Below are positions 11,766 through 56,516 of a stretch of 64,000 bases of DNA, in pieces; the stretch's first letter is position 1, and every line of letters starts with the position of its first letter. Source of the stretch: Anaerococcus sp. Marseille-P3915 (GTDB lineage Bacteria > Bacillota > Clostridia > Tissierellales > Peptoniphilaceae); NCBI RefSeq assembly GCF_900258475.1, contig NZ_LT984887.1, positions 1,468,593 through 1,532,592 of the forward strand, given 5' to 3'. The translations under genes and the position numbers were made by a program. The notes beneath the pieces are model-generated. The model did not search any database, had not been told where the DNA came from, and saw only the letters and a list, made by a program, of their open reading frames with translations.

Positions 11766-11877
11766 GGACCCTTTCGCATGGGTCCTCATCGGACGGAAAC
11801 CCGTTTGCTACGCAAACTCCTCCGTGCTACCGCACTATGTTTCCGGCATAAACGCCCCAAATCAAGGGGCGTTTATG
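11766..11877 (+). ncRNA. candidate structured RNA: covarying hairpin cluster, copy A
   Basis: GGACCC...GGGTCC (11766-11785) is followed by an outer stem GGAAAC (11795-11800) with GTTTCC (11839-11844). The outer stem encloses GTTTGC-TAC-GCAAAC (11803-11817) and GTGC-TACC-GCAC (11824-11835). After it comes a 12-bp hairpin, CATAAACGCCCC with GGGGCGTTTATG around loop AAATCAA (11847-11877). Copies at 55690-55772, 18073-18155 and 18361-18443 keep the order while changing stem bases in pairs. Whether it is transcribed is not known. Confidence 0.6.
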
Positions 11878-12587
11878 TCCCCCTTAAACCCCTCCCCGTT
11901 ACACCCCGCAAGCGACTCCTTAGCGGAGGGCAAAATATGTAGATTTTTTTCAAAAATCTTCTTTAGTATAGCAGTTTGCTTCGTATGTAGGTGGCCTTGT
12001 TCTTACTGATTTAAAATCAAAAATCCCCTAAAAATCACAATCTAGTCCAAATAGGAATTTTATAGTTACTTGTCATCTTAGTAGTTACAATATTTTTATT
12101 TAAGTATGGTTGTCAGTGTGATTTTCTTAACGGTGACTTTTTATTTTAAATCTCCCCATAGATTAGTATTTTAGACCCTATTATCGCAATGTTTGCCAAA
12201 GGCAAACGAGCCTTAGCCCTACTTTGACGTCGATATTCTCTCAGAATACAGAATAATTCTCCCATGGTCGTGAGATTTTGTAAATGGAGATGCCGTTAAG
12301 AAAATCTCCTGACGCACGAGTACAAATTATAATTCTGTAACTACTGAGATGTAGAGTATATACAAAACATAAATTTGGACTAGATTGAGATTTTTAGGCA
12401 TCGGAATGTCAAAATCAGTAGGAATAAAGATGGCTAGTACAAAGAGTTTTGCCTACTTATAGAGGATTGCCGTTAGGCAATCTTCACTGTTCGCACTCCG
12501 CCTAAGGAGCAGAGGGGGTGAGGGAAAAGGGGGTTTAAGGGGGAAATGTAGGACTCCCCAAAAGTTGTAGCTAGAAAAGAGGCTGCA

Positions 12588-13136
12588 ATGAAAAAATATA
12601 GTTTAGAATTAAAGAAAAAAGTAATAAAAGAATACGAAGAAGGCGAAATAAGTTTAAATAAATTAGCAAGAAAATATAAAATAAAAAGTCCCAAAAGCAT
12701 AAGAGAATGGGTAAGAAAAAGCAAAATATTTGGTGAAACTAGTCTAGAAAATCCTAAAATCAACGAATATCCTTTAGAAATAAAGCAAAGTGTGATAAAA
12801 TGTGCCTTAACAGGAGATTTAAATTTTAGGGAAATATCTGATAAATTTGGAATAAGAGATCCGAAAACAGTAAGTTCTTGGGTAAAAAACTTTCAAAAAG
12901 AAAAAAACTTCCCTAAAATCAATCTAACAATAGATTTAAAGGAAGAATACTTAGACATGAAGAAGAAAAATAAAAAGAAAGACTACACCGAAAAAGAAAT
13001 CCAAGAAATCCTAGAAGAAAACCTCCACCTAAGAATAGAAAATGACTATTTAAAAGAACTCAGGAGGTTGGTATTAGAAGAAGACTTGACAGATGCGATA
13101 AACAATACAAACAAACCAGAGCAATCTGCAAAGTAA
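12588..13136 (+). CDS. IS3-family transposase, OrfA (helix-turn-helix subunit)
   Basis: A 182-residue DNA-binding subunit with two tandem helix-turn-helix units: LNKLARKYKIKSPKSIREWV (about 21-40) and FREISDKFGIRDPKTVSSWV (about 79-98). A basic stretch and a coiled coil (EKEIQEILEENLHLRIENDY) follow. It recognises the element ends and multimerises with OrfB. The double HTH resembles IS150-group OrfA. Ribosomes slipping at 13049-13055 would make the fused OrfAB transposase. Confidence 0.9.
   Translation: MKKYSLELKKKVIKEYEEGEISLNKLARKYKIKSPKSIREWVRKSKIFGETSLENPKINEYPLEIKQSVIKCALTGDLNFREISDKFGIRDPKTVSSWVKNFQKEKNFPKINLTIDLKEEYLDMKKKNKKKDYTEKEIQEILEENLHLRIENDYLKELRRLVLEEDLTDAINNTNKPEQSAK
13049..13055 (+). 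other. -1 ribosomal frameshift site of the IS3 element
   Basis: T TTA AAA in the OrfA frame is a canonical X XXY YYZ slippery heptamer. The -1 frame is open from here through the orfB ATG to the orfB stop (FKRTQEVGIRRRL and onward), so slippage yields one OrfAB protein. Confidence 0.6.
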
Positions 13137-13207
13137 TAACCAGCCTCCGTGAGAACTATCAATTAAAAGACATACTAAAAGTAGTAAAAATAAGCCAATC
13201 AACCTAC

Positions 13208-14020
13208 ATGTACTGGCAAAGAAAAGAAAAAGAAGAAAATCCAGACGCTGAAATACTAGAAAAAATACTAGAAATAAGAAAAAAACATGAAGATTGGGGA
13301 TGTAAAAGAATCCATGGATATCTAAGCAGAAGCATAAAAATAAACATAAAAAAAGTTCATAGAATAATAAAAGAAAATAACCTACAAGTAAGAACATATC
13401 ACAAGAAAAATGGAAAATACAACTCATATAGAGGAGAAGTAGGAAAAGTAGCAGACAATATAATAGATAGAAATTTCAAATCAGAAAAACCACACAAAAA
13501 AATAACAACAGACACAACAGAATTCAAATACTATGAAAAAGACAAATCAAACAACTATCAAATAAAAAAACTTTACTTAAACCCATACTTAGATATGTAC
13601 AACTCAGAAATAATAAGTTATTCAATAAGTAAAAGCCCAAACTATGCAGCAGTAGAAAAAGCCCTAGATAAAGCATTAGAAATAACAAAAGATCAAACAG
13701 AAGTAATCTACCATTCAGACCAAGGCTGGCTGTATCAGATACCAAGATATGTAGAAAAGTTAAAATATAAAGACATAATCCAATCAATGTCAAGAAAAGG
13801 CAACTGCCTAGACAACTCCATAATGGAAAACTTCTTCTCAATAATAAAGCAAGAAATGTACAACAAAAAAACATTTCATAGCTACAAAGAATTAGAAAGA
13901 GCAATAATTAAATACATGGACTATTACAACAATGAACGAATAAAAGAGAAATTAGGCTTTATGAGTCCAGTAGAATATAGAGAAAATAGGTCGAAAGAAA
14001 AAATCAGTATATTATCTTGA
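13208..14020 (+). CDS. IS3-family transposase, OrfB (DDE integrase domain)
   Basis: The catalytic subunit with an rve-type DDE core. The first Asp is in KITTDTTEF, the second in VIYHSDQGW, and the Glu in NSIMENFFSIIKQE, with the usual spacing of IS3 enzymes; the C-terminal YYNNERIKEKLGFMSPVEYR is the family hallmark. An HTH_21-like region (KHEDWGCKRIHGYL) precedes the core. The ATG at 13208 is only the first in the frame. The functional product is probably the frameshifted OrfAB starting at 12588. No internal stops, so the element may be active. Confidence 0.9.
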   Translation: MYWQRKEKEENPDAEILEKILEIRKKHEDWGCKRIHGYLSRSIKINIKKVHRIIKENNLQVRTYHKKNGKYNSYRGEVGKVADNIIDRNFKSEKPHKKITTDTTEFKYYEKDKSNNYQIKKLYLNPYLDMYNSEIISYSISKSPNYAAVEKALDKALEITKDQTEVIYHSDQGWLYQIPRYVEKLKYKDIIQSMSRKGNCLDNSIMENFFSIIKQEMYNKKTFHSYKELERAIIKYMDYYNNERIKEKLGFMSPVEYRENRSKEKISILS

Positions 14021-14296
14021 TAAATCGCCCTTTTCTATAGAAAAGGGCCACCATCAATCTATAATATATTTGTATTGTAAGAAATTGAGCTACAACTTTT
14101 TGGGGGTACCATAAAAGCTGGAGGGGGCCTCTGCCGCCCCCTTAGCGTTCCACCTTATTACGAAGATTCAATAATAAATAATCATAATTTAATAAAAGAT
14201 AAAATAACGAAGAATTAAACTAAATAATAATATTATCTTGGATAATAAAACCCCCAATAATAACATATTATTTTATTGTAAAACAATCATCCAATT

Positions 14297-15091
14297 TTAT
14301 TGTAAAACAAATTCCAAACATTCTAATAAATATTTTGCCCAATCCTCTTCCGAATGGGTATCTCCGCTTATTATTTTTAATTTTATATTTTCAATTGGAA
14401 TCCCTGCCTTTATTAGGAGATCATAATATTTTATCGATGAGTCTATATAGGCTTGGCTTATTTTTCTTTCTGCACTCTCTTCTGTGCCTACTTTGATGTA
14501 GATTTTTTGGTTGGCTTTTAGTCTTGCATCTTTAAAGTAACTTTCAAATTCATCCTTAAAAGCGAAGCTTGCTAGGGAGAATATGCCTAAGCTTCCGATT
14601 TTGCCTTGGTATTTTTCACCTATAAAGGCTGATATATTGGCTCCGGCTGATGAGCCTATCATTGATGTAAATTTCTTACTTTTTTTAGTCCTATATTTCT
14701 GGTCTATGAAGGGCTTTAAGGTATTTAAAATGAAATCTGCATAAGCATCCCCTTCTGGCCTTTCTATTCTTAAGTCTGCTAGGCTTTGATCAAGGGGCCA
14801 AGGGCTATATTCTGCCATCCTTGCTGGGCTATTGTCTATGGCTACTCCTATAAATTCTTTAAGATTTTTATTCTCCCTGATTGTTTCTATTAGGCCCCAG
14901 GATTTGCCTGAGTAGGATTCATTGTCAAAGAAAATATTTTGCCCATCGTGAAAGTAGACTACCGGATATTTTCTAGATTTATTTTGATAGTAGGATTTAG
15001 GTAAGATGACCCTTATCCTTCTTATTTCTTTTTTATAATCCATTTCTAGGTAATATTCTTCAAGAATATTTTCCCTTTTTATATTAGACAT
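14297..15091 (-). CDS. enterochelin-esterase-like alpha/beta hydrolase (Esterase D family)
   Basis: A 264-residue hydrolase of the Esterase/Fes-like group. YPVVYFHDGQNIFFDNESY near residue 43 is the usual oxyanion region, and the nucleophile elbow is GSSAGA around residue 148. GDTHSEEDWAKYL at the C terminus supplies the catalytic His. No signal peptide or membrane segment. RBS AAAGGAAA lies before the ATG. It follows the His-rich lipoprotein gene on the same strand but a terminator separates them. Possible roles are siderophore ester or xenobiotic ester hydrolysis; the substrate is not evident. Its 3' end abuts the right end of repeat element A. Confidence 0.82.
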   Translation of the reverse strand: MSNIKRENILEEYYLEMDYKKEIRRIRVILPKSYYQNKSRKYPVVYFHDGQNIFFDNESYSGKSWGLIETIRENKNLKEFIGVAIDNSPARMAEYSPWPLDQSLADLRIERPEGDAYADFILNTLKPFIDQKYRTKKSKKFTSMIGSSAGANISAFIGEKYQGKIGSLGIFSLASFAFKDEFESYFKDARLKANQKIYIKVGTEESAERKISQAYIDSSIKYYDLLIKAGIPIENIKLKIISGDTHSEEDWAKYLLECLEFVLQ

Positions 15092-15174
15092 GGCTTTTCC
15101 TTTCTTTTTATTTCTATAATTATATAATTTTATAAATATATATCAATAAAAAGGTCCTCTTGGTTATTTATATA

Positions 15175-15212
15175 TAAAAAATCCAGCCTATTTTAATCCA
15201 AGCTGGATTTTT
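15175..15212 (-). terminator. terminator of the His-rich lipoprotein gene
   Basis: The stem AAAAATCCAGC / GCTGGATTTTTT around an AT-rich loop has T-runs on both strands. It lies after the lipoprotein stop codon. Confidence 0.85.
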
Positions 15213-15266
15213 CTTAATCATGTATAGTTTTATATATCGATATGATTTCGAGTGAATATAAGGCCC

Positions 15267-15998
15267 TTAATCGTGGTGATGATGGTGTGTATAGGCCCAC
15301 TTGTCATGTTCTGTAAATATTATTCCTTGGGTCTTGTTGTATAAGATTATTCCATAAGCCTCAAAAGCTTCATCATGATCATGATCATTGTCTTCTTCAT
15401 CATGATCTTGGTGATTATGATCATGGTCCTCATGACCTTCATCCTCATGAAGCTCTTCCATAATTTCCTTATACTGGTTATTTTCTAAAAGATAAGCATC
15501 AAGTGGGGCTCCCTTTAGGTAGAGAATGTATTCATCATCTACTCCCAAGCCATTTGCAAAATCTACCCAAGATTGGTATTTGATTTCCTCATCTGGCCCC
15601 TTTTGATTATTTATTGAAAAATCGGTTAACTTTAGCTTATAGATTCCCTTTTCTATTGTATCGACTATTTTAAATTTACCAGAAAAAATAGACTTATGAA
15701 TCTCAGACCTATTATAGGTCTCCTGACTTTCTGTCTTTAGTCCAAAATCTTGACCATCCAAATCAGAATTAGATAAAAAATCTCCATCGAAGTCGCCCTT
15801 GTCATAAAAATTGAGCGAGCTATAGGCGTGAGGATTTGAAAATGAATCTTTTAGATTTTTGCCATCAAGAAAGCTAAAGACTTGTTCATTTAAGGATTTA
15901 GCTTGGCTTATTTGTTTTTTAGAATTTTCTTTTTCATAGCCTTTGCCTGCACATCCTACTAATATCAGGCAAAGCCCTAATAAAAATATTTTTTTCAT
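15267..15998 (-). CDS. His/Asp-rich lipoprotein, probable metal binder
   Basis: A 243-residue lipoprotein with a short lipobox signal (LCLILVGC, Cys about residue 16), so it is membrane-anchored outside the cell. The body has no domain I recognise. Residues about 190-215 form a strongly acidic His-rich tract (HDHNHQDHD, HDHD), and the protein ends in YTHHHHHD, both classic zinc, nickel or copper-binding features. The overall look recalls zinc-binding lipoproteins next to metal transporters, but no transporter is adjacent. It is monocistronic, with RBS GAAGGA. A role in metal buffering or capture is inferred only from composition. Confidence 0.75.
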   Translation of the reverse strand: MKKIFLLGLCLILVGCAGKGYEKENSKKQISQAKSLNEQVFSFLDGKNLKDSFSNPHAYSSLNFYDKGDFDGDFLSNSDLDGQDFGLKTESQETYNRSEIHKSIFSGKFKIVDTIEKGIYKLKLTDFSINNQKGPDEEIKYQSWVDFANGLGVDDEYILYLKGAPLDAYLLENNQYKEIMEELHEDEGHEDHDHNHQDHDEEDNDHDHDEAFEAYGIILYNKTQGIIFTEHDKWAYTHHHHHD

Positions 15999-16059
15999 AT
16001 CATTCCTTCATTATCAGTTATTAAAATATTTTACTCTTTTTTAAGCTTCCTTTAAATTT

Positions 16060-16082
16060 AAAAAGGCCCGTTTAAGGGCCTT
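16060..16082 (-). terminator. terminator of the nitroreductase gene
   Basis: The hairpin AAGGCCC-TTAAAC-GGGCCTT is followed by a T-run on the minus strand, immediately after the nitroreductase stop codon. Confidence 0.8.
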
Positions 16083-16480
16083 GCTTAAATAAATTTAAAT
16101 GTTTCTGATAGGTCTTTGCGGTTGGTGTGATTAGCAAGTGGTTTGCCATCACCATTGGCATAGCCTAAATCTATTAGGCAGACTATTTGCTCATTTTCTG
16201 GTAAATCTAGGGCCTTTGCAAGCTCATCTGGATCAAAGAAATTAATCCAACAAGAATCAACCCCTTCATAAGCAGCAGCAAGGACCATGTGGGTTGCCAC
16301 AATTGTCGCATCTTCCACACCAGAATCATACTTATCGCCAGGATATGTATATATATTATCCTTATCGAAGGCAACAACAAGCACTGTAGGTGCCCCATAA
16401 CGGCATGGTGTATGCTCATCTATTGGATTGTCAACACCTATTTGTACAATCTAAAATCGAACGTACTAATTTAAGATTAA

Positions 16481-17293
16481 CTAATAATATCTATTTAATC
16501 TTAAATGTCTATATTTAACTGGTGGCAAGTAACCTAAGGATCCATGGATCCTTAGGTTGTTGTACCAGTAAACATACTCTGATAGTTCTAATTTTAGTTG
16601 ATTTAAACTTCTAAATTCTTTCTGATAAACAAATTCTGTTTTCATTACCTTATTAAATGCTTCAGCTACAGCATTATCATAAGGACTTCCTTTTTTGCTT
16701 AAGGATCTTTCTATTCCAAATACAACTAGGATTTTATCTATGCTCTTATTATCAAATTCTCGTCCTCTATCTGTATGGAATATTTTTATTTTATTTAATG
16801 GATATCTTATTGAGTAAATTGCTTCTTTTACTAATTCAGCACTTTTATTTTTACCTGCTGCATAGCCTATTATTTCCCTGTTGTGTAAATCTATTATTGC
16901 ACATATATAGTTCCAGCTATTTCCTACTCTTACATAGGTTAAGTCACTTACACATGCTTCTAAAGATTCTCTATTATCAAAGTGTCTGTCTACTTTATTT
17001 TTTATTTGTTTATTGTTACATGTAGTTTTTTCTACCTTGTATTGTTTTACTGTATAGCTTGAGATTAAGGCGTGTTTTTTCATTACTTTACATATTTTTC
17101 TTCTTGATGCTATTATGCCTTGATTTTCTAGTTCTACTTTGATTTTTCTAGATCCATACGCGTTTTTACTTTTTCTGAATATTTCTTTGATTTTCTCTTC
17201 TAAAAGCTCTTCTGTTTTTAGGTTGTTTTTAGATTCTTCTTTGTTTATATGATAGTATATTAAGCTTCTTGTTATTCCTAAAAACTTACACAT
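16481..17293 (-). CDS. IS3-family transposase, OrfB (DDE integrase domain)
   Basis: A 270-residue catalytic subunit. DDE residues: Asp in ACVSDLTYVRVG, Asp in KIFHTDRGREF, and Glu in NAVAEAFNKVMKTE; the C-terminal WYNNLRIHGSLGYLPPVKYR is typical. The N-terminal LLEEKIKEIFRKSKNAYGSR is the HTH_21-like region. The -1 frame is open upstream to the end of orfA (KLIISNRDKYSISAMCKFLG), so a fused OrfAB is expected. Different in sequence from the IS at 12550. Confidence 0.93.
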   Translation of the reverse strand: MCKFLGITRSLIYYHINKEESKNNLKTEELLEEKIKEIFRKSKNAYGSRKIKVELENQGIIASRRKICKVMKKHALISSYTVKQYKVEKTTCNNKQIKNKVDRHFDNRESLEACVSDLTYVRVGNSWNYICAIIDLHNREIIGYAAGKNKSAELVKEAIYSIRYPLNKIKIFHTDRGREFDNKSIDKILVVFGIERSLSKKGSPYDNAVAEAFNKVMKTEFVYQKEFRSLNQLKLELSEYVYWYNNLRIHGSLGYLPPVKYRHLRLNRYY

Positions 17294-17334
17294 TGCACTA
17301 ATACTGTATTTATCTCTATTTGAGATTATGAGCT

Positions 17335-17610
<276 letters not shown>

Positions 17611-18072
17611 TTTAAAATCCTCCTATGATTTCTTATTATTTATTGTATCATATATTCGATTTTAATTTGTACTATTTATTGTATCCATACCATATAATAG
17701 CAAGAGTCTTTTTAGATTCTGCCACATATATTCTTTGAGGTTGGTTATTTTTAGCAGTAGGTGCAAGGCGACCAGCCTCAAGTACTCTCTCCAAATCATC
17801 CCTATCTAAGGCAAGACTAGCAAAATTCTTGCATGAATAACGCTCTTTAACTAAATCAATAAATTCCATAAAAACTCCCTTCTATCTATATTTACCCAAA
17901 AATTGCAAAAATAAAATAAAGCTGCTTAGTTAAGGTGAAAAGTAAGCAGTTCTTTTGAAATGCTTGGTGGGGCTTTATAGACTTGTCCTTGCGAATCGAA
18001 GATGAGCAATGGAAAGTCTTATGCCGTAGCCAGGGACTCGAACCGCCTCACACGCCGACGGGCTATCCACCT

Positions 18073-18155
18073 GGTAAACACCCCTTGATTTGGGGTGTTT
18101 GCCCCGACATCTAGCGCGATAGCTCGGATAAGCTTGCGAAGCAAGCGGGATGTCG
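18073..18155 (-). ncRNA. candidate structured RNA: covarying hairpin cluster, tRNA-tail repeat 1
   Basis: Minus-strand reading: outer stem CGACATC (18149-18155) with GATGTCG (18105-18111) encloses GCTTGC-TTC-GCAAGC (18132-18146) and a short AGC/GCT hairpin. A 12-bp hairpin, AAACACCCC with GGGGTGTTT around AAATCAA (18073-18103), follows. Same order as in elements A and C with different, still paired, stem bases. Confidence 0.6.
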
Positions 18156-18360
18156 TCAGGTTATGAGCCCTCCATAAGCTGGGCAGGCTTGTTACCGGTA
18201 GGTCCGCTCCCAAATTTCACAAAAAAATAAGCACTTCTTTAGAAATGCTTGGTGGGACTTTATAGACTTATCCAGGTGAATCCAAATGATGAGCCATGGA
18301 AAGTCTTATGCAGTAGCCAGGGACTCGAACCGTCTCACACGCCGACGGGCTATCCACCTA

Positions 18361-18443
18361 TTCAAAGCCCCTTGATTGGGGCTTTGAAGGCTGAAATATA
18401 GGGCGGTAGCCCGAAAGAGTCTGCGAAGCAGACGGATTTCAGC
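18361..18443 (-). ncRNA. candidate structured RNA: covarying hairpin cluster, tRNA-tail repeat 2
   Basis: Minus-strand reading: outer stem GCTGAAAT (18436-18443) with ATTTCAGC (18390-18397) encloses GTCTGC-TTC-GCAGAC (18419-18433) and GGGC-TACC-GCCC (18401-18412). An 11-bp hairpin, CAAAGCCCC with GGGGCTTTG around AATCAA (18361-18388), follows. All four stems pair perfectly although bases differ from the other copies. Confidence 0.6.
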
Positions 18444-18509
18444 TCGGTTTGAGCTGGAGGCTCATAACCGGTTCTGCGCACAAAAAAAGCACTCCATCTC
18501 AGAAGTACT

Positions 18510-18586
18510 TGGTGGGGCTTCAGGGACTCGAACCCTGGACCTACCGGTTATGAGCCGGGCGCTCTAACCGACTGAGCTAAAGCCCC
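18510..18586 (-). tRNA. tRNA-Ile2 (CAT anticodon, probable lysidine type)
   Basis: 77-nt cloverleaf with encoded CCA. The anticodon loop reads CTCATAA. The GGCTCATAACC anticodon arm resembles tRNA-Ile(CAU), whose C34 becomes lysidine, more than elongator Met; elongator Met remains possible. It is the last gene of the array. Confidence 0.85.
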
Positions 18587-18612
18587 ATATAACTGGTATC
18601 CTATGAAATTTA

Positions 18613-18689
<77 letters not shown>

Positions 18690-18840
18690 ACAAATATAAA
18701 GATTTCTCGCTTCGCTCGACCATTCTGCCTCTGCACCAGACCTACAATCCACTTCTTTCAGAAATGGTGTTAGGACTTCGCATGGAGGGTCCTCTATGAG
18801 CCGGACGGGCTATCCTCATCGAACCGGACGGGCTTGCTTT

Positions 18841-18916
18841 TGGCAGGGGAGACAGGATTTGAACCCGCGACATCCGGTTTTGGAGACCGACGTTCTGCCA
18901 GCTGAACTACTCCCCT
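18841..18916 (-). tRNA. tRNA-Trp (CCA)
   Basis: 76-nt cloverleaf with anticodon CCA (GGTCTCCAAAACC arm) and encoded 3' CCA. Confidence 0.93.
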
Positions 18917-19084: not shown

Positions 19085-19089
19085 ATATT

Positions 19090-37536: not shown

Positions 37537-37639
37537 AAAAATCCTTTCATTAAGTATTGTTATATTAATACCCAAAAAAGCTAGACTTTTATACAATATA
37601 AAATTATTTTAGGGGCTTGCCCCTAAAACCCCTACTTTA

Positions 37640-38528
37640 TTATCCAAGACAATATTATTATGAGGTTTAATTCTTCGTTATTTTATCTTTTATTAAATGA
37701 TTATTATTTACTATTGAATCTCCGTCTCAAGGGGAGGCCCAAGGACCCTTTCGCATGGGTCCTCATTGCCCTCCCCCTTAAACCCCTCCCCGTTACACCC
37801 CCAGGCGGCCCCTAAAGCGGGGAGCATGAACAGAAGCTTGCCTTCGGCAAGCCTCTCTTGGCAGGCATAATCCTTTGTTTTAGCCATCCTAATTCTTACT
37901 AGTTTTGACATTCCGATGCCTAAAAATCTCAATCTAGTCCAAATTTATGTTTTGTATATACCCTACATCTTAGTAGTTACAGAAATTTAATATTCACTCG
38001 TGCGTCAGGAGATTTTTTTAACGACATCTCCATTTACAAAATCTCCCGACCTTTGGGGATATAGTTCTGTATTCTGAGAGAATATTAACGTCAAAGTAGA
38101 TTTAAGACTCGTCTGCCTTTGACAAACTTTGCGATTAGTTGTTTAGAGAATAGAACTTTAAGATATACTTAATTAAAATCGTTAATTATTTCAAATCAAG
38201 TCGGCGTCCAAAAATTTTGTTGAACGAAACGAAGTGGAGTGAATCTAAATTTTTAGCTGACGAGATTTGAAATAATAGATTTTGTACCAGGATGAATAGC
38301 AGTCAGGTCTAATAAAGAAGATTGCCAGAGGCAATCTTCATTTTGCCCTCTGCAAGAGTCGCTTGCGGGGTGTAACGAAGTGGGGGTGTAAGGGGGAGGG
38401 CAATGAGGACCCATGCGAAAGGGTCCTTGGCCCTCCCCCTTTGGCGAAGTCATCAGCTTAATGACAATAATTTATTATGATAAAAAATTACAAAGAATTA
38501 AAGTAAATATTAATATTATCTTGGATAA
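37640..38528 (-). repeat. non-coding dyad-symmetric repeat element, copy B
   Basis: An 889-bp element bounded by TTATCCAAGACAA (37640) and TTATCTTGGATAA (to 38528), inverted relative to copy A. Order: AT-rich end, GC-rich module (37725-37845) with hairpin GGACCC/GGGTCC, core with TTTTGACATTCCGATGCC (37903-37920), hairpin arms around 38000-38070, a GATTTGAAATAAT block, and a second GC-rich module in inverse orientation (38330-38460). Beyond both ends lies the small palindromic unit (TAGGGGCTT...). Copy B lacks the four-hairpin cluster. No ORF of substance. Confidence 0.75.
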
Positions 38529-38642
38529 TAAACCAACCATCTTGGATAATAAAACAGGGATTTTTAGGAGAAGCCCCTAGAATACTTTATCTTGGATAAA
38601 AATGGTATAATTATCTTAAAAGCAAAAAGTAAAGGATATATA

Positions 38643-43869: not shown

Positions 43870-44010
43870 ATTACTCAAGAAGCTTGCCGAAGGCAAGCAA
43901 CCTTATTCGCCCTCCGCTAAGGAGCCGGATGTGGGGTGTAACGGGGAGGGGGTTTAAGGGGGAGCCCAATGAGGGACCATCCGGAAGGTCCCTTGGGGCT
44001 CCCCCTTGAA
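43870..44010 (+). repeat. isolated GC-rich end module of the repeat-element family
   Basis: A hairpin GCTTGCC-GAA-GGCAAGC (43882-43898) is followed by GGGGTGTAACGGGGAGG, GTTTAAGGGGGAG and the hairpin GGGACC-ATCCGGAA-GGTCCC. This is the same module that ends copies A-D, here alone in the 287-base gap after telA. It keeps the IS110 target-type junction GAG/GGACC intact. Confidence 0.65.
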
Positions 44011-44096
44011 CGAAGAGAATCGATAAATAGATACTGTTCATCATGATATAAACAATTAAGATGAAAATAATTTATTTTGAATAAGGGGGACTAATA

Positions 44097-48462: not shown

Positions 48463-50173
48463 CTTTCCCTCCTCTTTCATACGCAATAAAACTTTCTATG
48501 AAGTCTTTTGGATCTATTCCTTCTAATTTTTGGCCCAGTTTATAAAGAGATGTCTCCGCAAGGTGTGCCCTAGCTATTAGGTCTTTCTCAGAAAATAAAT
48601 CTGCTGGATTAGTGTCAGCTAAGATTTTTTTACCTTCTATAACTATGACCCTATCTGTATATTCCTGGATTAGGTGCATGTCATGGCTTATCATAAGTAT
48701 ACTTAGTCCGTACTTATCCCTTAAATCTTTGATAAAATCCATCATCTGCCTGTAGTGGCCTAGGTCTTGGCCTGCTGTTGGTTCATCTAAGATTATGACT
48801 TCTGGGTCTAGGACTAGGATCGAAGCTATAGTCACCCTTCTTTTTTGACCATAGGAAAGGGCTGATATTGGCCAATTTCTAAATGGATAGAGGCCACAAA
48901 TCTTTAGGGTCTCTTCTACTTTTTCCCTTATTAGGTCTTCGTCAATATTTCTTATCCTTAGACCAAAGGCGACTTCATCATAAATCATGGTTTTAGATAT
49001 CATGGCATTAGGGTTTTGAAGGACAAAGCCAATCTTTTCTGCAATTTCTTTTATGGAAAGGCTGCTTGTATCCTCGCCTTTGATGTAGATTTTGCCTTTA
49101 TTTGGCCTTAGAAAGCCTGCCATTAGCTTGGCTAAAGTTGATTTACCTGCTCCATTTGGCCCTACAATTGAGGTAAGCTCTCCCTCTTTTATCTCTAAAT
49201 TTATATTTTCTAGAATTAAGTCCTTGTCATAGGCAAAGGATAAATCTTCAATTTTTATTAACTCTTCCTTAGAATTTTCCTTGACCTCTTCTTTGATATT
49301 TGTTGACCAAGTCCTTAGCTTATCCAGGTCACAATCCTTTATATTTACCTGGTCAATGTCTCCTAGCTTGTCATAGGCTTTTATGTCGCATCCCGCATAG
49401 GTTAGGGCATCTAGGTAGAGAGGCTTTCTGATTGTGATTTTATCTAGGATATCTGATTTTAAAAGATCAGTAGGAGATAGGTCTGCTAATATTTTGCCCC
49501 CATCTACCGCTATTATCCTGTCTGGATCAAGGAGGAGAGCCTCTTCTAGCCTGTGTTCTATGACTATGACTGTAACTTTGAGTCTTTCTGCCAAGTCCCT
49601 TACAAGCTTCATTGTTGCCCTGCCGCTTTTTGGGTCTAGGTTTGCCAAAGGCTCATCTAAAAGCAAGATTGGTACTTGACTTATCAAAACCCCACCTATT
49701 GATACAGTCTGCTTTTGTCCACCCGATAAATCGCTTGGTTTTCTGTCTAAGAGCTTTGTAATCTTTAGCTCATCAGCCCATTTTTCTACAAGTTCTTTCA
49801 TCTTTTCCTGGTCCACCTTATCATTTTCAAGACAAAAGGCCATATCTTCTGCTACAGTAAGGCCTACAAATTGGCCGTCAGTATCTTGGAGGACTGTTCC
49901 TGTCGATAAGGAGAGGTCAAAGATTGATGAATCCTTGATGTTTTTTCCATCAACAAAGACCTCCCCCTCTATATCTCCGGGGAAGGTATTTGGTATTTGG
50001 CCATTTAGGCTCTTAGCAAGGGTCGACTTGCCAGAGCCTGATGGGCCTACTATTACAATTTTTTCACCCTTTTTGATTTCTAAATTGATATCTATAAGGG
50101 AGGGCTCAGCCTGTGCTCTGTATTTAAAAGAGTAATTATTAAATTTTACTAAGGACTGGCTCTTATCTGTCAT
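48455..50173 (-). CDS. fused duplicated ECF ATPase (MtsB-like)
   Basis: A 572-residue protein with two ABC ATPase domains in tandem. Domain 1: Walker A GPSGSGKS (43-50), signature LSGGQKQ (149-155), Walker B LLLDEP. Domain 2: GPNGAGKS (338-345), LSYGQKRR, IILDEP. The duplicated fusion, rather than separate EcfA1/A2, is what SEED-type annotations call MtsB in methionine-regulated ECF transporters. It lies one base after the S-component gene. It hydrolyses ATP to drive uptake by the T and S subunits. Confidence 0.9.
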   Translation of the reverse strand: MTDKSQSLVKFNNYSFKYRAQAEPSLIDINLEIKKGEKIVIVGPSGSGKSTLAKSLNGQIPNTFPGDIEGEVFVDGKNIKDSSIFDLSLSTGTVLQDTDGQFVGLTVAEDMAFCLENDKVDQEKMKELVEKWADELKITKLLDRKPSDLSGGQKQTVSIGGVLISQVPILLLDEPLANLDPKSGRATMKLVRDLAERLKVTVIVIEHRLEEALLLDPDRIIAVDGGKILADLSPTDLLKSDILDKITIRKPLYLDALTYAGCDIKAYDKLGDIDQVNIKDCDLDKLRTWSTNIKEEVKENSKEELIKIEDLSFAYDKDLILENINLEIKEGELTSIVGPNGAGKSTLAKLMAGFLRPNKGKIYIKGEDTSSLSIKEIAEKIGFVLQNPNAMISKTMIYDEVAFGLRIRNIDEDLIREKVEETLKICGLYPFRNWPISALSYGQKRRVTIASILVLDPEVIILDEPTAGQDLGHYRQMMDFIKDLRDKYGLSILMISHDMHLIQEYTDRVIVIEGKKILADTNPADLFSEKDLIARAHLAETSLYKLGQKLEGIDPKDFIESFIAYERGGKDE

Positions 50174-50174
50174 A

Positions 50175-50726
50175 TTAGTCTCTACTTAATGAATTGTCTG
50201 CTGTTTGGGTCTTAGCATAAGCTGCAATTAAGATTGTTCCCAAAATTCCTACTGCAAGGCTGTTAAGGCCTGCTGATACAAAACCTTGGGCAAACACCTT
50301 ATTGGCTGGCTCTGAATAAATTAGGATGTCTAAAACTGGCGCAACTAGGCCCCAAGAGATGACATTGGTTATGATTTGTCCGATGTTAAATTTGATTATA
50401 TCTTTTTTCTCAAATTTACCCTTGCTTAGATCAAGATTTTTTCCAACTAGGCCAAATCCTGCTCCTGTTACCCCGCTTGTGATAACCCATGACCACCATA
50501 GGCCGTAAGTTAATAGGTCCTTGATAGCATGGCCTATAAGTCCAATTAGGCATCCAACAACCGGTCCAAAAAGCACGCTCATTAGAGCTAGGAATGGGTA
50601 GGTTGTTTCTACTGATGTATTTGGAATGAAACCTACTGGTATTGATAAAAATCTACCTAGAATAAAAAACACTGCAGCACCAATGCCTATAGCAACTATG
50701 CTTGTAATTGAATTATTTTTTTTCAT
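50175..50726 (-). CDS. ECF transporter S component, UPF0397 family (MtsA-like)
   Basis: A 183-residue membrane protein with about six helices, matching the UPF0397 pattern: [60 protein letters not shown] and [13 protein letters not shown]. As S component it binds the substrate. Gene order (SAM hydrolase, S, fused A, T) under a SAM-I riboswitch fits a methionine- or SAM-related substrate. The ATG at 50726 overlaps the stop of the preceding gene (TAATG); RBS AAGGAG. Confidence 0.85.
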
Positions 50727-51562
50727 TATATCTCCTTTTTGATAAATATGGTCCAATCTGCACCTGTCCCTATCTGGTAGGTGTCAGAAAATGATGCTTG
50801 GTTGATGGCTATACCTAAATTTATTAGGGAATTGATATAGGCTATAGTCTCCCCAAGTCCAACGTCTGCGAAAGAATGGCCAAAGGTCATTTGATTTTCA
50901 TATTTTTTGATATTTTTATAGAAAATTGTAACCTTAATAGCATCACCCTGCTTGATATCCGCCTTCTTTAATAAGTCTAGCGGAATATTTGTCCATAAAG
51001 ATCCAAATCTAATATCTAGGATGTCGATAGTTCCCTCTATTACTCCATCTTTAAATACAGCCTCCTTGATAGGTGAATATACCAATTCATCAAGGCTAAT
51101 TTCTTTTAGAAAATGATAATAACCCTCATCACTTGCAAGCTTTGCCCCATTGTAGGCATAGACATCCCTGCCATGGAAGGTGTGGGAATTTTCTGAGAAT
51201 GGGAGCCTATCCTTAACCTCATCGATAATCCTTGCAGATTCTAGGCCAATAAATTTAGCTACATGGGAAATAGTTCCATTATCAGGAGTGACAATGTAGT
51301 GGCCGGCCTTGGTTTTTACAACAATAGAGTGCCTATCGCTGCCTACTCCTGGATCCACTACTGATACAAAAACTGTTCCCTTTGGCCAATATTCTATGGT
51401 TTGCAAAATCCTATAGGAAGCCTCAAAAATATTGTAAGGTTTGATATCGTGGGTTAGATCATCTATTATTAGATCAGAATTTACCATTCTAGCAACCCCG
51501 TGCATGGCAGATACTGCCCCATCTCCTAAACCAAAGTCTGATTGAAAAACTAAAGCGTTCAT
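50726..51562 (-). CDS. S-adenosyl-L-methionine hydrolase (adenosine-forming), DUF62 family
   Basis: A 278-residue enzyme of the SAM hydroxide adenosyltransferase / SAM halogenase fold. It splits SAM with water to adenosine and methionine. Motifs: [16 protein letters not shown] at the N terminus, [29 protein letters not shown], and [11 protein letters not shown]; the C-terminal domain holds [19 protein letters not shown]. The halogenase-specific loop is not obvious, so hydrolysis is the safest call. The start at 51562 has GAAAGGA. First gene of the riboswitch operon. Confidence 0.87.
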
Positions 51563-51620
51563 TTTAATAAGTCCTTTCATAAATAAAATGCCTAGGCGGA
51601 AAATTTTCAAATTTTTAATC

Positions 51621-51755
51621 AAAAAACACCCACCTGCGATGGATGTTCATTTTCTACCTATCCATCATTCAAGCTTTAGCACCTTAGCCTTTGCTAGGTT
51701 GCTGAAGGGTCATCAAGCTTGTCTCTCGCCTTCTCTTTATGGTAAGAACATTATA
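51621..51755 (-). promoter_or_regulatory. SAM-I (S-box) riboswitch with terminator and promoter
   Basis: Minus strand: -10 TATAAT (51750-51755); aptamer 51646-51749 with GTTC/GAAC closing ends and the S-box core GAGAAGGCGAGAGA, GATGACCCTTCAGCAACC, AAGGTGCTAAAGCTTG; then a terminator ACATCCAT...GTGGGTGT followed by TTTTTT (51621-51648). High SAM should stabilise the aptamer and allow termination. It controls the SAM hydrolase and ECF transporter operon. Confidence 0.88.
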
Positions 51756-51787
51756 CCCCTAAAAAAACCTTTGTCTTTAAAAAAATC

Positions 51788-51820
51788 AAAAAGCACCCTC
51801 ATAATGAAAGAGTGCTTTTT
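51788..51820 (-). terminator. terminator after ribU
   Basis: AAAAAGCACTC...GGGTGCTTTTT with a T-run, between ribU and the SAM riboswitch promoter. Confidence 0.85.
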
Positions 51821-51859
51821 GATAAACAGAATGTTGTAGGATAATAATATAATAAGAAT

Positions 51860-52453
51860 TTATCTTGCTTTTAATATTGGCGAAACCCTCTTATAGATTA
51901 GGTCTGTAACTAAGGCTGCAACTGCACCCTTGACTAGGTTAAATGGCACAATTGAAAGTAGCATTAGGCTTACATAGGATTTAACAAGTGGGTTGCCTGG
52001 TACTTGGCCAGCAAAGGCTTCAAGTGGGAATCCCATTGCCTTAGCATAGGCTGGGAATACTACAAAGGCATTTGAAAGTGTAGCTATAGCTGTCATTGCG
52101 ATAACTCCACAAGCAAGTGCAAAGATAGCAGTTTTCTTAGTCTTCCTGTTTTTATAAATTGTAGATGCTACAAATACGAATGTTGAACCAACTATAAAGT
52201 TTGATAGTTCGCCAACTCCAACAGTTTGTGTCTTAGTTAGATTAAGAATATTTTTAACTAATTGAATAGCAACTCCTGCCCAAGGTCCCATAGCAAAGCC
52301 TCCTATAAGGGCTGGCACATCTGCCAAATCCACTCTCATAAATGGTGGGGCTATTGGAATTGGTACTTGGAAAAACATGAGTATAAAAGCCAAAGCGGCT
52401 AAGATACCAATTTTAGTAACGTTGCTTAGTGAAATAGATCTTGTTTTGTTCAT
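51860..52453 (-). CDS. ribU: riboflavin ECF transporter S component RibU
   Basis: A 197-residue membrane protein with six helices. Start segment NVTKIGILAALAFILMFFQV, then PIPIAPPFMRVDLADVPALI and GFAMGPWAGVAIQLVKNILN are RibU hallmarks. It binds riboflavin and works with a shared or own EcfAAT. The ATG at 52453 lies behind GGGAGG, which is itself inside the expression platform of the FMN riboswitch. Monocistronic. Confidence 0.93.
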   Translation of the reverse strand: MNKTRSISLSNVTKIGILAALAFILMFFQVPIPIAPPFMRVDLADVPALIGGFAMGPWAGVAIQLVKNILNLTKTQTVGVGELSNFIVGSTFVFVASTIYKNRKTKKTAIFALACGVIAMTAIATLSNAFVVFPAYAKAMGFPLEAFAGQVPGNPLVKSYVSLMLLSIVPFNLVKGAVAALVTDLIYKRVSPILKAR

Positions 52454-52471
52454 ATAATACCTCCCTTTGGG

Positions 52472-52496
52472 CATAAAAAATGCCCTAAAATCAGGG
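52472..52496 (-). terminator. FMN riboswitch expression platform
   Basis: GCCCT-GATTTT-AGGGC with a T-run on the minus strand, partly exclusive with the next hairpin GGGCATTTTTTATGCCC just ahead of the ribU Shine-Dalgarno. The two could give transcription and translation control. Confidence 0.7.
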
Positions 52497-52509
52497 CTCG
52501 AAAAAAATT

Positions 52510-52640
52510 ATAATAATCTTCTTCCATCCAGACTATACTGTCGGTTTTGGAATTGCACCAAATCGGTCCAAAGGGACTCGCAGACTATAACTGCCGGTTA
52601 AGGAATTTCACCTTTCCCTGAAGAAGCAATGGTTTTCATT
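52510..52640 (-). promoter_or_regulatory. FMN riboswitch (RFN element)
   Basis: Minus strand CTTCAGGGAAAGGTGAAATT, ACCGGCAGTTATAGTCTGCG, GATTTGGTGCAATTCCAAAA, CCGACAGTATAGTCTGGATG and GAAGAAG form the conserved RFN five-stem junction. It senses FMN and represses ribU. Confidence 0.96.
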
Positions 52641-52705
52641 GCTATATAATATCTATTAATTTATCTACTTATATTGTAAACTATCGTCTATAATATGTCA
52701 AATTT

Positions 52706-53368
52706 TTATTCAGGGGAACAAGAATCAAGTGTCCACCTATATCCTTGCCTACTAACTGTCTCAATTGGAGCAAGATCTGCCTTTTTAAACTCATTTCTAA
52801 TCTTTCTGATATGTTCTCTAACAGACCTAGGTGTGGTGTCAAGGTTTTTGTCAGTTTTCATGATCTCCACTATATCTTCCTTGCTAAGGGTCTTGCCCAT
52901 ATTAGAGATTAAGATTGCACAAATAGCAAGCTCAGACTTGGTTAAATCCAAAATCTTATTGCCAACCCTAAAGATACCATTATCTTCTTCCATGGTGCAA
53001 AAACCAAGCTTAATAATATTGGCCTGACTTATCTCTTCTACCTTCTTAAAAATATTTTGGATAAATTCATCCCTAGTTACAGAATGGATAACAAAATCCT
53101 TATCATCAAGTTCTTGCTCGTAAGGATTTTTCTTATATCTTTCAGTTAGGTAGATTACAGGAATTTTGGTCTTTTGTTTGATATATTGGATAAATTGTAG
53201 ACACTTATTATGAGTCATATCAACAAGGATAAGATCATAAACGCTACAATCTTTAAACAAAAGCTCATCCATAGATTCGATTTTCTCCACAAGAACATCA
53301 TTCTTATTAAAGTGAGAATTTATTAAATTTGATACACCATTCTCATATTCAACAGAAGCAATTCTCAT
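52706..53368 (-). CDS. winged-helix (OmpR/PhoB-type) transcriptional regulator with an atypical receiver
   Basis: A 220-residue protein. The C-terminal Trans_reg_C winged helix is clear: FRVGNKILDLTKSELAICAI, LSKEDIVEIMKT, TPRSVREHIRKIRNEF and PIETVSRQGYRWTLD. The N-terminal about 115 residues look like a receiver fold (YDLILVDMTHNK, KTKIPVIYLTERY), but the paired acidic residues normally near residue 8-10 are missing (VEYENG), so classical phosphorylation is doubtful. No histidine kinase is adjacent. The ATG at 53368 has AAGAAGGA; an upstream ATG at 53470 gives an unlikely basic extension. Confidence 0.8.
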   Translation of the reverse strand: MRIASVEYENGVSNLINSHFNKNDVLVEKIESMDELLFKDCSVYDLILVDMTHNKCLQFIQYIKQKTKIPVIYLTERYKKNPYEQELDDKDFVIHSVTRDEFIQNIFKKVEEISQANIIKLGFCTMEEDNGIFRVGNKILDLTKSELAICAILISNMGKTLSKEDIVEIMKTDKNLDTTPRSVREHIRKIRNEFKKADLAPIETVSRQGYRWTLDSCSPE

Positions 53369-53680
53369 TTTTTCCTTCTTTCCTAATAAAGATTTAATAA
53401 AATCATTTTCGTAAAACCTACAAATACTTTTATGTTTCTTTAAAATTAATAATTTTTTATAAGTTAACATTTAAAATATAAAGCAATACATGTAAATCTT
53501 ACTATCTATGTAGAATATCTTTAAACAACTTTAACTTAGCCAAGTTTATTTTATAAATCTTTATAATATATTTTAATTAATCCTGTTAACACTTTACGCT
53601 CATAAGGGATATTTACAAGATATTTTTATTATCACAATTAAAAGTGTAATAAATATGTTTAATATTAAAATATCAATAAA

Positions 53681-53703
53681 AAAGAGTCCTTAAGGACTCT
53701 TTC
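53681..53703 (-). terminator. terminator after gpmA
   Basis: AAGAGTCC-TTAA-GGACTCTT and a T-run (minus strand). The rest of the 340-base gap to the regulator gene is AT-rich with no further gene. Confidence 0.85.
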
Positions 53704-53709
53704 AAAGAT

Positions 53710-54399
53710 TTATAGATAATATTTTTTAACTACATTTAGTTCATCATCTAGTTCATAAACTAGTGGTTGACCTGTTGGGATTTCTAAATCCATTATGTCA
53801 TCATCTGAGATTTTTTCTAGGTGTTTAGCTAGGGCTCTTAAGCTGTTGCCGTGAGCTGCTACTAGGACTGTGTCGCCTTCAAGTAGTTGTGGAGCAATTT
53901 TGTCGAAGTAATAAGGTAGTACTCTTTCAAGTGTTACCTTTAGGTTTTCTGCACCTGGAATTACATCTTTTGGAAGGTGAGCAAACATTGGAAGTGCTGC
54001 TTGTCTTTCTTTTTCTTCTGCTGAGAGTTCTGGTGGAAGTGTATCATATGATCTTCTCCAGATGTGAACTTGTTCATCACCGTATTTTTCAGCTGTTTCT
54101 GCTTTGTTTAGACCTTGTAGGGCACCGTAGTGTCTTTCGTTTAGTCTCCAAGATTTTTCAACTGGTACAAATAATTGGTCAGAATATTCAAGAGCAAAGT
54201 TACAAGTTTTGATAGCTCTTTTTAGGATTGATGTGTGAGCATAATCAAATTTGATGCCTGCTTCTTTAATCTTTCTTCCAGCTTCCTTAGCTTCTTCTAC
54301 ACCCTTATCAGATAGGTTTACATCTACCCAACCTGTAAATTTGTTAGCTAGGTTCCATTCACTTTGGCCATGTCTTACTAATACTAATTTTTTTGTCAT
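53710..54399 (-). CDS. gpmA: 2,3-bisphosphoglycerate-dependent phosphoglycerate mutase
   Basis: A 229-residue GpmA that interconverts 3- and 2-phosphoglycerate in glycolysis. Phospho-His motif [10 protein letters not shown] at residues 6-15, [13 protein letters not shown], the catalytic Glu and Arg in [12 protein letters not shown], and the second His in [14 protein letters not shown]. Full length. The start overlaps the mreB stop (TAATG). Confidence 0.97.
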
Positions 54400-55448
54400 T
54401 ATCTTCTCCTTAGTTTTTCAAAAGCTTCATTTTCTGCTTGCTTGCTTTTGATAGCTTCGTTCCTATTCTCATCTAACTGGTCTATCCAATTTAGGGCCTT
54501 GGCAGTTCCCTCAATTACACATTCTTGAGGATTATCAGCTATCCTTGCCTCAATCCTAAATTTCTCTTCGATCCTATCCTTTAGACCCAAGGTATAGGCG
54601 CCTCCCCCTGTAAGGATAATTTGCCTATCAAATATATCACTTGCAAGTTCTGGCGGAGTTACTTCCATAACTCTTTTTACCCCTTCTACAATCAAATCAA
54701 TCTGACGTTTTATAGAATCCTTGACCTCACTAACAGGTATATAAACCTTAGATGGGAGGCCATTAGCTATTTCCCTACCCTTAACCTCGATTGAATCATC
54801 GACTGTAAGCTTACCTGCTTCTTTTTTGATAGCTTCTGCACTTTGATCGCCAATAAGTAGCCCATAGCGAGTCCTAATATAATCCTTTATAGCCTTATCA
54901 AATGTTAGACCTGCTACATCAACAGACTTACTAGATATGATTTGGCCCATGGATATAACCGCTATATCACAAGTGCCTCCTCCTACATCGACAACCATAG
55001 ATCCCTTAGGATCTGTTATATCTACACCTGCGCCAAGGGCTGCAGCTAGGGGTTCTTCAATAAGATAAGTCCTGTGAGCTCCAGCATTTTCAGCCGCCTG
55101 GAGGACTGCTCTTTTTTCAACTTGGGTAGACCTTGCTGGTACACAAATAAGTAAATCAGGTTTGAAAAGGGATTTTTTGACAGATTTATTCAAAAAATGT
55201 TCAAGCATCCTCTCGGTAGCTCTAAAATCTGCAATAACCCCATCTTTCATCGGAAGGATACAGGAAACATTCCCAGCAGCCCTACCAATCAATTTCTTAG
55301 CATCTTCACCAACCGCAAGTATCTCATCTGTAAGGACATCTATAGCTATGACAGATGGTTCATTTAAAACTATTCCTTTGTTATAAACATAGACTAGCAC
55401 ACTAGCCGTTCCTAGGTCAATAGCAACCGACCTTCTAAATCTTGCCAT
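54399..55448 (-). CDS. mreB: MreB/Mbl family actin-like shape protein
   Basis: A 349-residue bacterial actin. [14 protein letters not shown] (phosphate 1), [17 protein letters not shown] (phosphate 2) and [13 protein letters not shown] (adenosine) are all present with the connect-1/2 loops. MreB proteins form filaments that guide wall synthesis. The start at 55448 is chosen by alignment to the family start; its SD is weak. A hairpin CCCATC-CGA-GATGGG lies 20-35 bases upstream. Coupled to gpmA, with no mreCD nearby. Confidence 0.92.
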
Positions 55449-55557
55449 AATATTTTTCTCTTTCTCCCATCCGAGATGGGGTATCATTTTAATCTTTTCG
55501 TTTATTAAAATTATATCATAATAGGGTAATTTTTTCACCCAAGAATAGATTTTTCTT

Positions 55558-56516
55558 TTATCCTAGATAAAATTATTATATAGTTTTGATCTTCGTAACT
55601 TTATCTCATAATAAATTATTATTATTTACTATTGAATCTTCGTTCCAAGGGGAGGCCCAAGGGACCTTCCGCATGGTCCCTCATCGGACGGAAACCCGTT
55701 TGCTACGCAAACTCCTTCGTGCTACCGCACTATGTTTCCGGCATAAACGCCCCAAATCAAGGGGCGTTTATGTCCCCCTTAAACCCCTCTCCGTTACACC
55801 CCCAGGCGGCCCCTAAAGCGGGGAGCATGATTAGAAGCTTGCCTTCGGCAAGCAACTCTAAGTAGACAGAACACTTCGTAAAAGTTATTCTAATCATAAC
55901 TGATTTTGACATTCCGATGCCTAAAAATCTCAATCTAGCCATAATAATCTTCTATATAAACTCTACATCTCAGTAGGTACAGAATTCTTATTTGTACTCG
56001 TGCGTCAGGAGATTTTCTTAACGGCATCTCCATTTACAAAATCTCCCGACCTTGGGAGAATTATTCTGTATTCTGAGAGTATATTGATATCATAGTAGGT
56101 CTAAGCTCGTTTGCTCTCGCAAACATTGCGATAAACAGGTCTAGGGAAGATAGTCTTAAGACTTATATAAATAAAATCGTAAATTATTTTAAATCGAGGA
56201 AGCGTTGAAAAATTTTGTTGAGCGTAGCGAATCTAAATTTTTAGCTGACGAGATTTAAAATAATAGATTTTGAACCAGGATGAATAGCAGTCAGGTCTAA
56301 CAAAGAAGATTGCCAGAGGCAATCTTCTTTTTGCCCTCTGCAAGAGTCGCTTGTGGGGTGTAACGAAGAGGGGGTGTAAGGGGGAGGGCGATGAGGACCC
56401 ATGCGAAAGGGTCCTTGGCCCTCCCCCTTTGGCGAAGTCATCAGCTTGATGACAACCATTTTATACGTGATAAAATTCCGAAGAATTAAAGTAAATAATA
56501 ATATTATCTTGGATAA
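55558..56516 (-). repeat. non-coding dyad-symmetric repeat element, copy C
   Basis: A 959-bp element, same orientation as copy B, bounded by TTATCCTAGATAA (55558) and TTATCTTGGATAA (to 56516). It has the GC-rich module (55640-55840) with GGGACC/GGTCCC and the four-hairpin cluster, the core string TTTTGACATTCCGATGCC (55904-55921), the CGTGCGTCAGGAGATTTT hairpin arms (56000-56050), and the inverse GC-rich module (56325-56440). It fills the whole gap between mreB and metK. Confidence 0.75.
55690..55772 (+). ncRNA. candidate structured RNA: covarying hairpin cluster, copy C
   Basis: GGAAAC (55690-55695) with GTTTCC (55734-55739) encloses GTTTGC-TAC-GCAAAC and GTGC-TACC-GCAC. The hairpin CATAAACGCCCC with GGGGCGTTTATG (55742-55772) follows. 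Nearly identical to copy A except the upstream hairpin, which changes from GGACCC/GGGTCC to GGGACC/GGTCCC. Confidence 0.6.

Follow-up and report, generated by a model that had tools for sequence, protein, structure and literature searches.

A probable non-autonomous mobile element of about 85 bp, dispersed in Anaerococcus genomes, with a folded DNA strand as its predicted moving form

The 64-kb window analysed here (the whole stretch of Anaerococcus sp. Marseille-P3915 DNA, 64,000 nucleotides) carries four copies of a short folding sequence whose stem bases change in pairs from copy to copy. Does this pattern mark a working RNA, or can it have another origin? The initial annotation listed four copies with their stems; all of these are present in the sequence, and a covariance model recovers the same four places, at 11793-11877 (copy 1) and 55688-55772 (copy 2) on the plus strand and at 18073-18156 (copy 3) and 18360-18443 (copy 4) on the minus strand, and at E up to 0.01 it finds no others in the window. 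Each copy has an outer stem that encloses two hairpins, with a third hairpin after it. In copy 1 (~85 bp, delimited by sequence and covariance model), these are the outer stem 11794-11800/11839-11845, hairpin 1 at 11803-11808/11812-11817 (loop TAC), hairpin 2 at 11824-11827/11832-11835 (loop TACC) and hairpin 3 at 11848-11858/11866-11876 (loop AAATCAA), all on the plus strand. The outer stem reads GACATC/GATGTC in copy 3, which has an A-G mismatch in its second enclosed hairpin, and GCTGAAAT/ATTTCAGC in copy 4. As the annotation had supposed, no match to a known RNA family emerged. Rfam gave no match over the four copies at the gathering threshold, and a permissive search of 11700-12000, around copy 1, returned a single chance-level match (E 1.8) at 11883-11966, outside the element; a known riboswitch or RNA family was therefore rejected.

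The ~900-bp repeat that surrounds copy 1 occurs again around copy 2, which makes these two copies near-identical and leaves three distinct element sequences in the window. The host repeat around copy 1 spans approximately 11659-12472 (repeat families D2, D3 and D7; inverted pairs I2, I6 and I7), and that around copy 2 spans 55553-56521, between mreB-like and metK-like genes. Copies 3 and 4 occupy sister units of a tandem repeat (17938-18148 and 18223-18435, respectively, minus strand; repeat families D9 and D14) just downstream of a tRNA cluster. Repeat comparison located another ~900-bp repeat, at 37636-38532, that lacks the element. Its segment 37730-37811 (plus strand) is an element-free counterpart, in which TCCTCATTGCCC is followed directly by TCCCCC, where copies 1 and 2 have CCTCATCGG, the element and then TCCCCC; the flanks differ by two extra bases and substitutions, so the counterpart does not count as an exact empty site. 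A related flank without the element lies at 9369-9403 on the minus strand (weak match, E 0.004). The dispersed-insertion nature of the sequence, with this counterpart in the same window, was missed by the initial annotation.

The source genome contains 19 element matches at E up to 1. Element-positive genomes number 30 of 130 in Peptoniphilaceae and 26 of 31 in Anaerococcus, one of the latter (G038) being matched by a variant form only; the same variant is present in two genera related to Anaerococcus. Among the matches listed, the element lies in ~900-bp repeats, in copies of 5S rRNA (in either orientation relative to the 5S), in one copy of tRNA-Met and in further repeats. Since 5S and tRNA genes are functional when intact, the element was presumably gained at these sites. 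At least five copies (L002, L077, L109, L129 and L137, from four genomes) are nested in hairpin-2 loops of other copies, and the sole copy examined beside a gene (L052) lies where the end of uvrB is partly duplicated. Neither one element pattern nor one copy, used as queries, had a match in viral, plasmid and phage collections, and a title-level search of open-licence literature found no published account of such an Anaerococcus element.

Insertion precision was assessed at exact empty sites, defined by nine exact bases per side with gaps of 0-8 allowed. Such sites were found for 38 of 166 copies, in six of 36 flank clusters, and were absent for the other 128. In 37 of the 38 the element replaces one base, in the remaining one two bases, and no target duplication is seen. 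Among the example sites, five clusters show T as the replaced base and the sixth shows T, A or G. The upstream ends are CAC; ACT or GAC; GTT; TCC; CCT; and AGC. The six clusters are not fully independent, since TCCCCC flanks two of them and TCGAGA another two; they may represent four target types. The one-base rule is derived from exact flanks alone: in looser pairs (the window's own repeat, 5S and tRNA-Met) the junctions differ by at least two bases or by substitutions. The element-free sites are mostly paralogous repeats rather than the same locus in sister strains. By eye or by fold, some insertions appear to lie within hairpins (the hairpin-2 loop, a CTCGA hairpin and 5S loop C), and the mean junction value was 0.69 vs 0.56 in a bare comparison of means. 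However, a permutation test was not significant (499 of 2000 as high, with poor clustering that put 118 of 168 copies in one cluster), and neither was a second test (8, 9 and 16 of 60 as high), so a general rule of insertion into hairpin loops was rejected.

The paired stem changes seen by the initial annotation extend to the whole family. Standard pairs fill 97.8% of 3612 pair cells in 135 distinct rows, and double-change cells number 730, against 181.8 (sd 13.2) in shuffles, none of 500 shuffles being as high. A tree-simulated null of our own making (60 simulations) was applied to the 122 rows of A4, with A5 excluded for its mismatched columns. It yielded 13 significant column pairs, 12 of them structural and one extending the last hairpin; the other 16 of 28 structure pairs fell short of significance.

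This covariation is strong yet not RNA-like. Mispairs in 4364 stem cells (158 rows) comprise 39 G-T, 45 A-C and 55 others. A position-based control on tRNA stems from the same DNA gave 32 G-T and 1 A-C in 492 pairs, a control that may undercount mismatches, since ARAGORN detects tRNAs partly by pairing; a first version (62 G-T, 0 A-C in 891 pairs) was discarded, as ARAGORN annotates standard pairs only. Pair states common to at least four rows are 63 Watson-Crick, no G-T, one A-C and no other. Between nearest neighbours, double changes are Watson-Crick in 41 cases and other in three, and single changes lead to G-T in 27, to A-C in 31 and to other mispairs in 33; recent single stem changes fall without regard to pairing. 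Selection for RNA (or ssDNA) structure, as originally proposed, is thus unsupported in its RNA branch, because wobble is as rare as A-C, no G-T state recurs in at least four rows and recent changes are blind to pairing; the ssDNA or DNA branch fits. The accompanying view of fixed loops is borne out by the last loop (AAATCAA), whose columns are 87-99% conserved, and not by loops overall: across the whole model, mean conservation is 78.5% in unpaired and 77.6% in paired columns. Unpaired columns are thus not better conserved than paired ones, which makes general loop recognition by a protein less plausible.

The repeat is present in many copies and in hosts of several kinds, some sites carry it and related ones do not, some copies are nested in others, exact empty sites show no target duplication, and the stems covary through Watson-Crick pairs only. 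We consider the ~85-bp repeat most likely to be a non-autonomous mobile DNA element and predict that its moving form is a folded DNA strand. Spread would be limited to copies with intact DNA hairpins, and copies once inserted would decay neutrally; such a regime would produce perfect covariation between spreading lineages alongside unconstrained recent changes. A putative enzyme supplied in trans would act on single-stranded or extruded DNA, recognise the fold and do the joining.

Perfect stems might also persist without selection. In template-switch homogenisation, the polymerase slips between the arms of a stem during replication and copies one onto the other, which would keep stems perfect, and insertion too would occur via slippage between hairpins. 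The mechanism is described for short inverted repeats (PMC8604942). It accords with Watson-Crick double changes, few wobble intermediates and mismatches that are alike on both strands. However, alone it leaves unexplained the conserved last loop, the fixed ends and the one-base replacement at exact empty sites, and fresh single mismatches persist (27 + 31 + 33, as above); we regard it as unlikely.

Candidate mobilising enzymes were sought in 26 element-bearing and five element-free Anaerococcus genomes. A Y1 transposase had no match in nine of the 26 and was present in four of the five; the IS200 element of the source genome was rejected as parent, as its ends differ by eye and Y1 does not track the element. 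An IS110 transposase had no match in 12 of the 26, and only sub-cut-off matches in three more; it was rejected as a required mobiliser. Reverse transcriptase was matched in 17 of the 26 and in none of the five. Nine element-bearing genomes without a match, among them the high-copy G010 (84% complete) and G011, led us to reject it as a required mobiliser and to retain the association, which, with no match in any element-free genome, would favour an RNA route. The mobilising enzyme was thus not found among these three types in the 31 genomes. A half-element search of 685 kb (overlaps counted) recognised no long autonomous form; it returned 82 unpaired halves, and those inspected were nested copies or look-alike flanks.

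An RNA route would take the form of retro-insertion, with element RNA joined into other RNAs and then reverse transcribed into the genome. The 5S rRNA and tRNA hosts and the distribution of reverse transcriptase speak for it. Against it stand the two high-copy genomes without a reverse transcriptase match, the lack of G-U pairs among shared variants, although an RNA fold would tolerate them, and several hosts that are repeats without sign of RNA genes, and we judge it very improbable. Least credible of all, to the point of being highly implausible, is a structured RNA (a regulatory or processing element) maintained by transcript-level selection at each site: the 12 significant structure pairs with their one extension, and the position of copies 3 and 4 just downstream of the tRNA cluster, where they could be transcribed, would suit it, but wobble is as rare as A-C, opposite to tRNA, single stem changes show no wobble preference, and the hosts differ, include other copies and carry the element in both orientations relative to 5S.

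As a mobile DNA element, the repeat resembles several known systems in part. REP elements are short bacterial palindromes with many copies, mobilised by the Y1 enzyme RAYT and thought to move as folded single strands, with a GTAG or CGTC tag at the palindrome foot. The Anaerococcus element is likewise a short, many-copy, folding bacterial repeat, but neither tag occurs in the first or last six bases of 156 distinct copies (GTAA occurs in 18), and nine of 26 element-bearing genomes lack a Y1 match. Like MITEs of DDE transposons, it is short, non-autonomous and dispersed; it differs in replacing one base at 37 of 38 exact sites instead of duplicating the target, and it has no terminal inverted repeat: of 10 terminal bases, 3.8 are complementary on average in the 156 copies, and never more than 7. 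IS200/IS605-type MITEs have a fixed target of 4-5 bases just 5' of the insertion, whereas the example upstream ends here vary across the six exact groups. Integron attC sites carry GTTRRRY and RYYYAAC boxes at their ends; none of the 156 copies has them in its first and last 15 bases. Rickettsia palindromic elements are mobile, self-folding bacterial repeats of similar size (~100 bp), known in frame inside protein genes, whereas L052, the only gene-adjacent copy examined, lies in a partial uvrB-end duplicate. To our knowledge, the double-hairpin elements (DHE) and repetitive hairpin-forming elements (RHE) of mitochondria have no known mobiliser. These elements of fungi and sponges are small, self-folding, dispersed and non-coding, are regarded as potentially mobile, and occur in intergenic regions and rRNA genes (PMC10085805, PMC2800124). 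The Anaerococcus element is also dispersed, self-folding and optionally present at otherwise alike sites; DHE and RHE are mitochondrial and for the most part consist of shorter hairpins, with one triple-hairpin insert of 90 bp also on record. Sponge RHE conserve their stems and vary in their loops (PMC2800124), in contrast to the covarying stems and fixed last loop of the Anaerococcus element.

A bolder proposal, which we offer tentatively and hold to be rather doubtful, is that bacteria harbour a novel type of transposable unit that has no inverted ends and no fixed target. In it the 85-base DNA fold would be the substrate, and a putative single-strand enzyme would swap one target base, usually T, for the element, sometimes within the loops of further folded DNA, its own copies among them. 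If the one-base replacement does reflect an enzyme, its DNA joining would fit none of the transposon types compared here.

Strong stem covariation can thus be yielded by a mobile DNA fold and not only by RNA, and comparing G-T with A-C mismatches can separate the two. An RNA-motif survey could otherwise class this element as a new noncoding RNA, although in Anaerococcus it probably does not work as an RNA and is instead a tiny DNA parasite able to move.

The structure reported in the initial annotation, an outer stem enclosing two hairpins and followed by a third with the loop AAATCAA, was present at all four places in the window: 11793-11877 and 55688-55772 on the forward strand, and 18073-18156 and 18360-18443 on the reverse strand. 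The two forward copies are one repeat occurring twice, which leaves three distinct element sequences. A covariance model of the kind proposed in that annotation, trained on five copies, recovered the four window copies and nothing else in the window (E ≤ 0.01). No Rfam family was found over any of the four at the gathering threshold, in agreement with the earlier claim; the permissive Rfam search was confined to the surroundings of the copy at 11793-11877.

The paired stem changes are real covariation, as judged by shuffling and by a tree-simulated null. Double-change cells in the stems numbered 730, against 181.8 (sd 13.2) after shuffling. The home-made tree-simulated null, applied to 122 rows of the A4 alignment of copies (rows of the A5 alignment were excluded, as their columns did not match), gave 13 significant column pairs. 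Twelve of them belong to the structure and one lengthens hairpin 3; the remaining 16 of the 28 structure pairs were without significance. G-U is tolerated in an RNA helix and A-C hardly. Among 4364 stem cells, mismatches comprised 39 G-T, 45 A-C and 55 others, in 158 distinct rows drawn from the 194 in A4 and A5 after removal of duplicates and of rows in which more than three pairs were gapped. As a control, 41 tRNAs encoded in that DNA were read at fixed positions, which gave 32 G-T and one A-C among 492 pairs; these tRNAs were found partly via pairing, so mismatches may be hidden. A covariance model inherently favours G-U above A-C, and therefore model-based row choice should raise G-T, not lower it. 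The pairing of the element is of DNA type, with G-T as rare as A-C, so that of the proposed selection for RNA (or single-stranded DNA) structure the DNA fold fits and the RNA is not supported.

Nearest-neighbour rows were compared at no more than eight stem differences (124 pairs from 157 rows). Single stem changes led to G-T in 27 cases, to A-C in 31 and to other combinations in 33; transitions in a Watson-Crick pair yield G-T or A-C with equal frequency, and single changes therefore look unconstrained. Double changes gave Watson-Crick pairs 41 times and others three times, and the states present in at least four rows were Watson-Crick (63), A-C (1), G-T (0) and other (0). Resident copies thus seem to decay freely, with DNA pairing kept in spreading lineages. 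Because of this pattern on two time scales, we favour a mobile DNA element whose fold would be needed for its spread.

The surroundings of the copies vary and include, among those listed, ~900-bp repeats, small hairpin repeats and other element copies; at least five copies lie within the hairpin-2 loop of another. Further hosts are incomplete 5S rRNA copies that follow rRNA operons, one tRNA-Met copy and, by eye, tRNA-Gln-like stretches. A flank-joined match spanned the junction for 163 of 179 distinct copies, some of these being weak or self matches. When nine exact bases were demanded on either side, exact empty sites were obtained for 38 of 166 copies (6 of 36 flank clusters), and in 37 of the 38 the element replaced a single base: in the examples examined, a T in five of the six clusters, and T, A or G in the remaining one. 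Since TCCCCC is shared by the flanks of two clusters and TCGAGA by those of two others, independent target types may number four. In looser pairs (5S, tRNA-Met, and the window's 55688-55772 versus its element-free counterpart at 37730-37811, forward strand) the junction differs by more than one base. As 5S and tRNA genes function in their intact form, these hosts probably gained the element rather than lost it. Some targets are hairpin loops; flank-complementarity and folding tests of loop targeting as a general rule were not significant, and we do not claim it as established.

Several loci with element copies showed additional arrangements. In L102 (480-1120) and L096 (1388-3036) a full 5S gene is followed by tandem truncated 5S rRNA copies bearing the element, and L096 also has reversed element copies near the 5S 3' end. 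In L052 (1465-1701) the end of a uvrB-like gene is partly duplicated directly behind the gene, and the element lies inside this second copy. A second hairpin repeat of ~25-30 bases (AGCCCGTCCGGCTC...GAGGAC) was seen by eye close to tRNA genes and within copies derived from 5S (window 18820-18850 and 9395-9530; L011, L024, L027, L043 and L090); in L024, L027 and L090 the 85-base element is placed within a unit of it. The ~900-bp repeats form a non-coding, partly palindromic family (11659-12472, 37636-38532, 55553-56521 and 61598-62397; partial copies at 14153-14256 and 43872-44016). The window also contains genes or gene fragments for transposases of the IS110 and IS3 families (62573-63805, 16481-17293 and 12588-13136), a reverse-strand, nitroreductase-like ORF starting near 17869 and apparently interrupted by the IS3 copy (by eye), and FMN and SAM riboswitches found by Rfam search on the reverse strand (52512-52629 and 51659-51745).

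Three gene families were compared as candidate mobilisers across the 31 genomes of the genus, 26 with the element and five without. The Y1 transposase had no match in nine element-bearing genomes and was present in four of the five element-free ones; the IS110 transposase had no match in 12 of the 26, with only sub-cut-off matches in three more. The reverse transcriptase had no match in any of the five element-free genomes, and its association with the element remains; it also lacked a match in 9 of the 26, including the high-copy G010 (84% complete) and G011, and therefore, on the evidence of these assemblies, is not a requirement. Conservation of the hairpin-3 loop (87-99% per column) would fit a putative protein reading that loop; unpaired columns overall show no higher conservation than paired columns.

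The element is most like double-hairpin elements and repetitive hairpin-forming elements, both mitochondrial (PMC10085805, PMC2800124). Unlike the element described here, the latter, in sponges, keep their stems conserved while their loops vary (PMC2800124). The copies have no REP tags, inverted ends or integron boxes, no fixed 5' target upstream and no target duplication at their exact empty sites.

The genus carrying the element is Anaerococcus. The window's own genome has 19 matches (E ≤ 1), and 30 of the 130 genomes of the taxonomic family were matched (E ≤ 0.01): 26 of the genus's 31 and four from two other genera. The order-wide search found it in at least 31 of 249 genomes (3 of 92 genera) and the class-wide sample in at least 3 of 391; candidates per genome were scored in part, and copy counts are lower bounds. 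No match was found in viral contigs searched with one element pattern, or in plasmids and phages searched with one element copy. The sole match in G038, one of the 26, is a variant, which also occurs in the two related genera and adjoins a conserved stretch in all three. In L101 (G032) a full Anaerococcus copy holds the variant's position in that stretch, which supports common descent. A match to Rfam RF02446 (SpR18 sRNA), an RNA described from Streptococcus, adjoins the variant at three of the five tested loci (L057 of G108, L148 of G110 and L059 of G038), suggesting that SpR18 may be part of a wider repeat. The structure first noticed in the window is real and of interest, but its meaning has changed: instead of a new regulatory RNA, it most likely represents a small mobile DNA fold.
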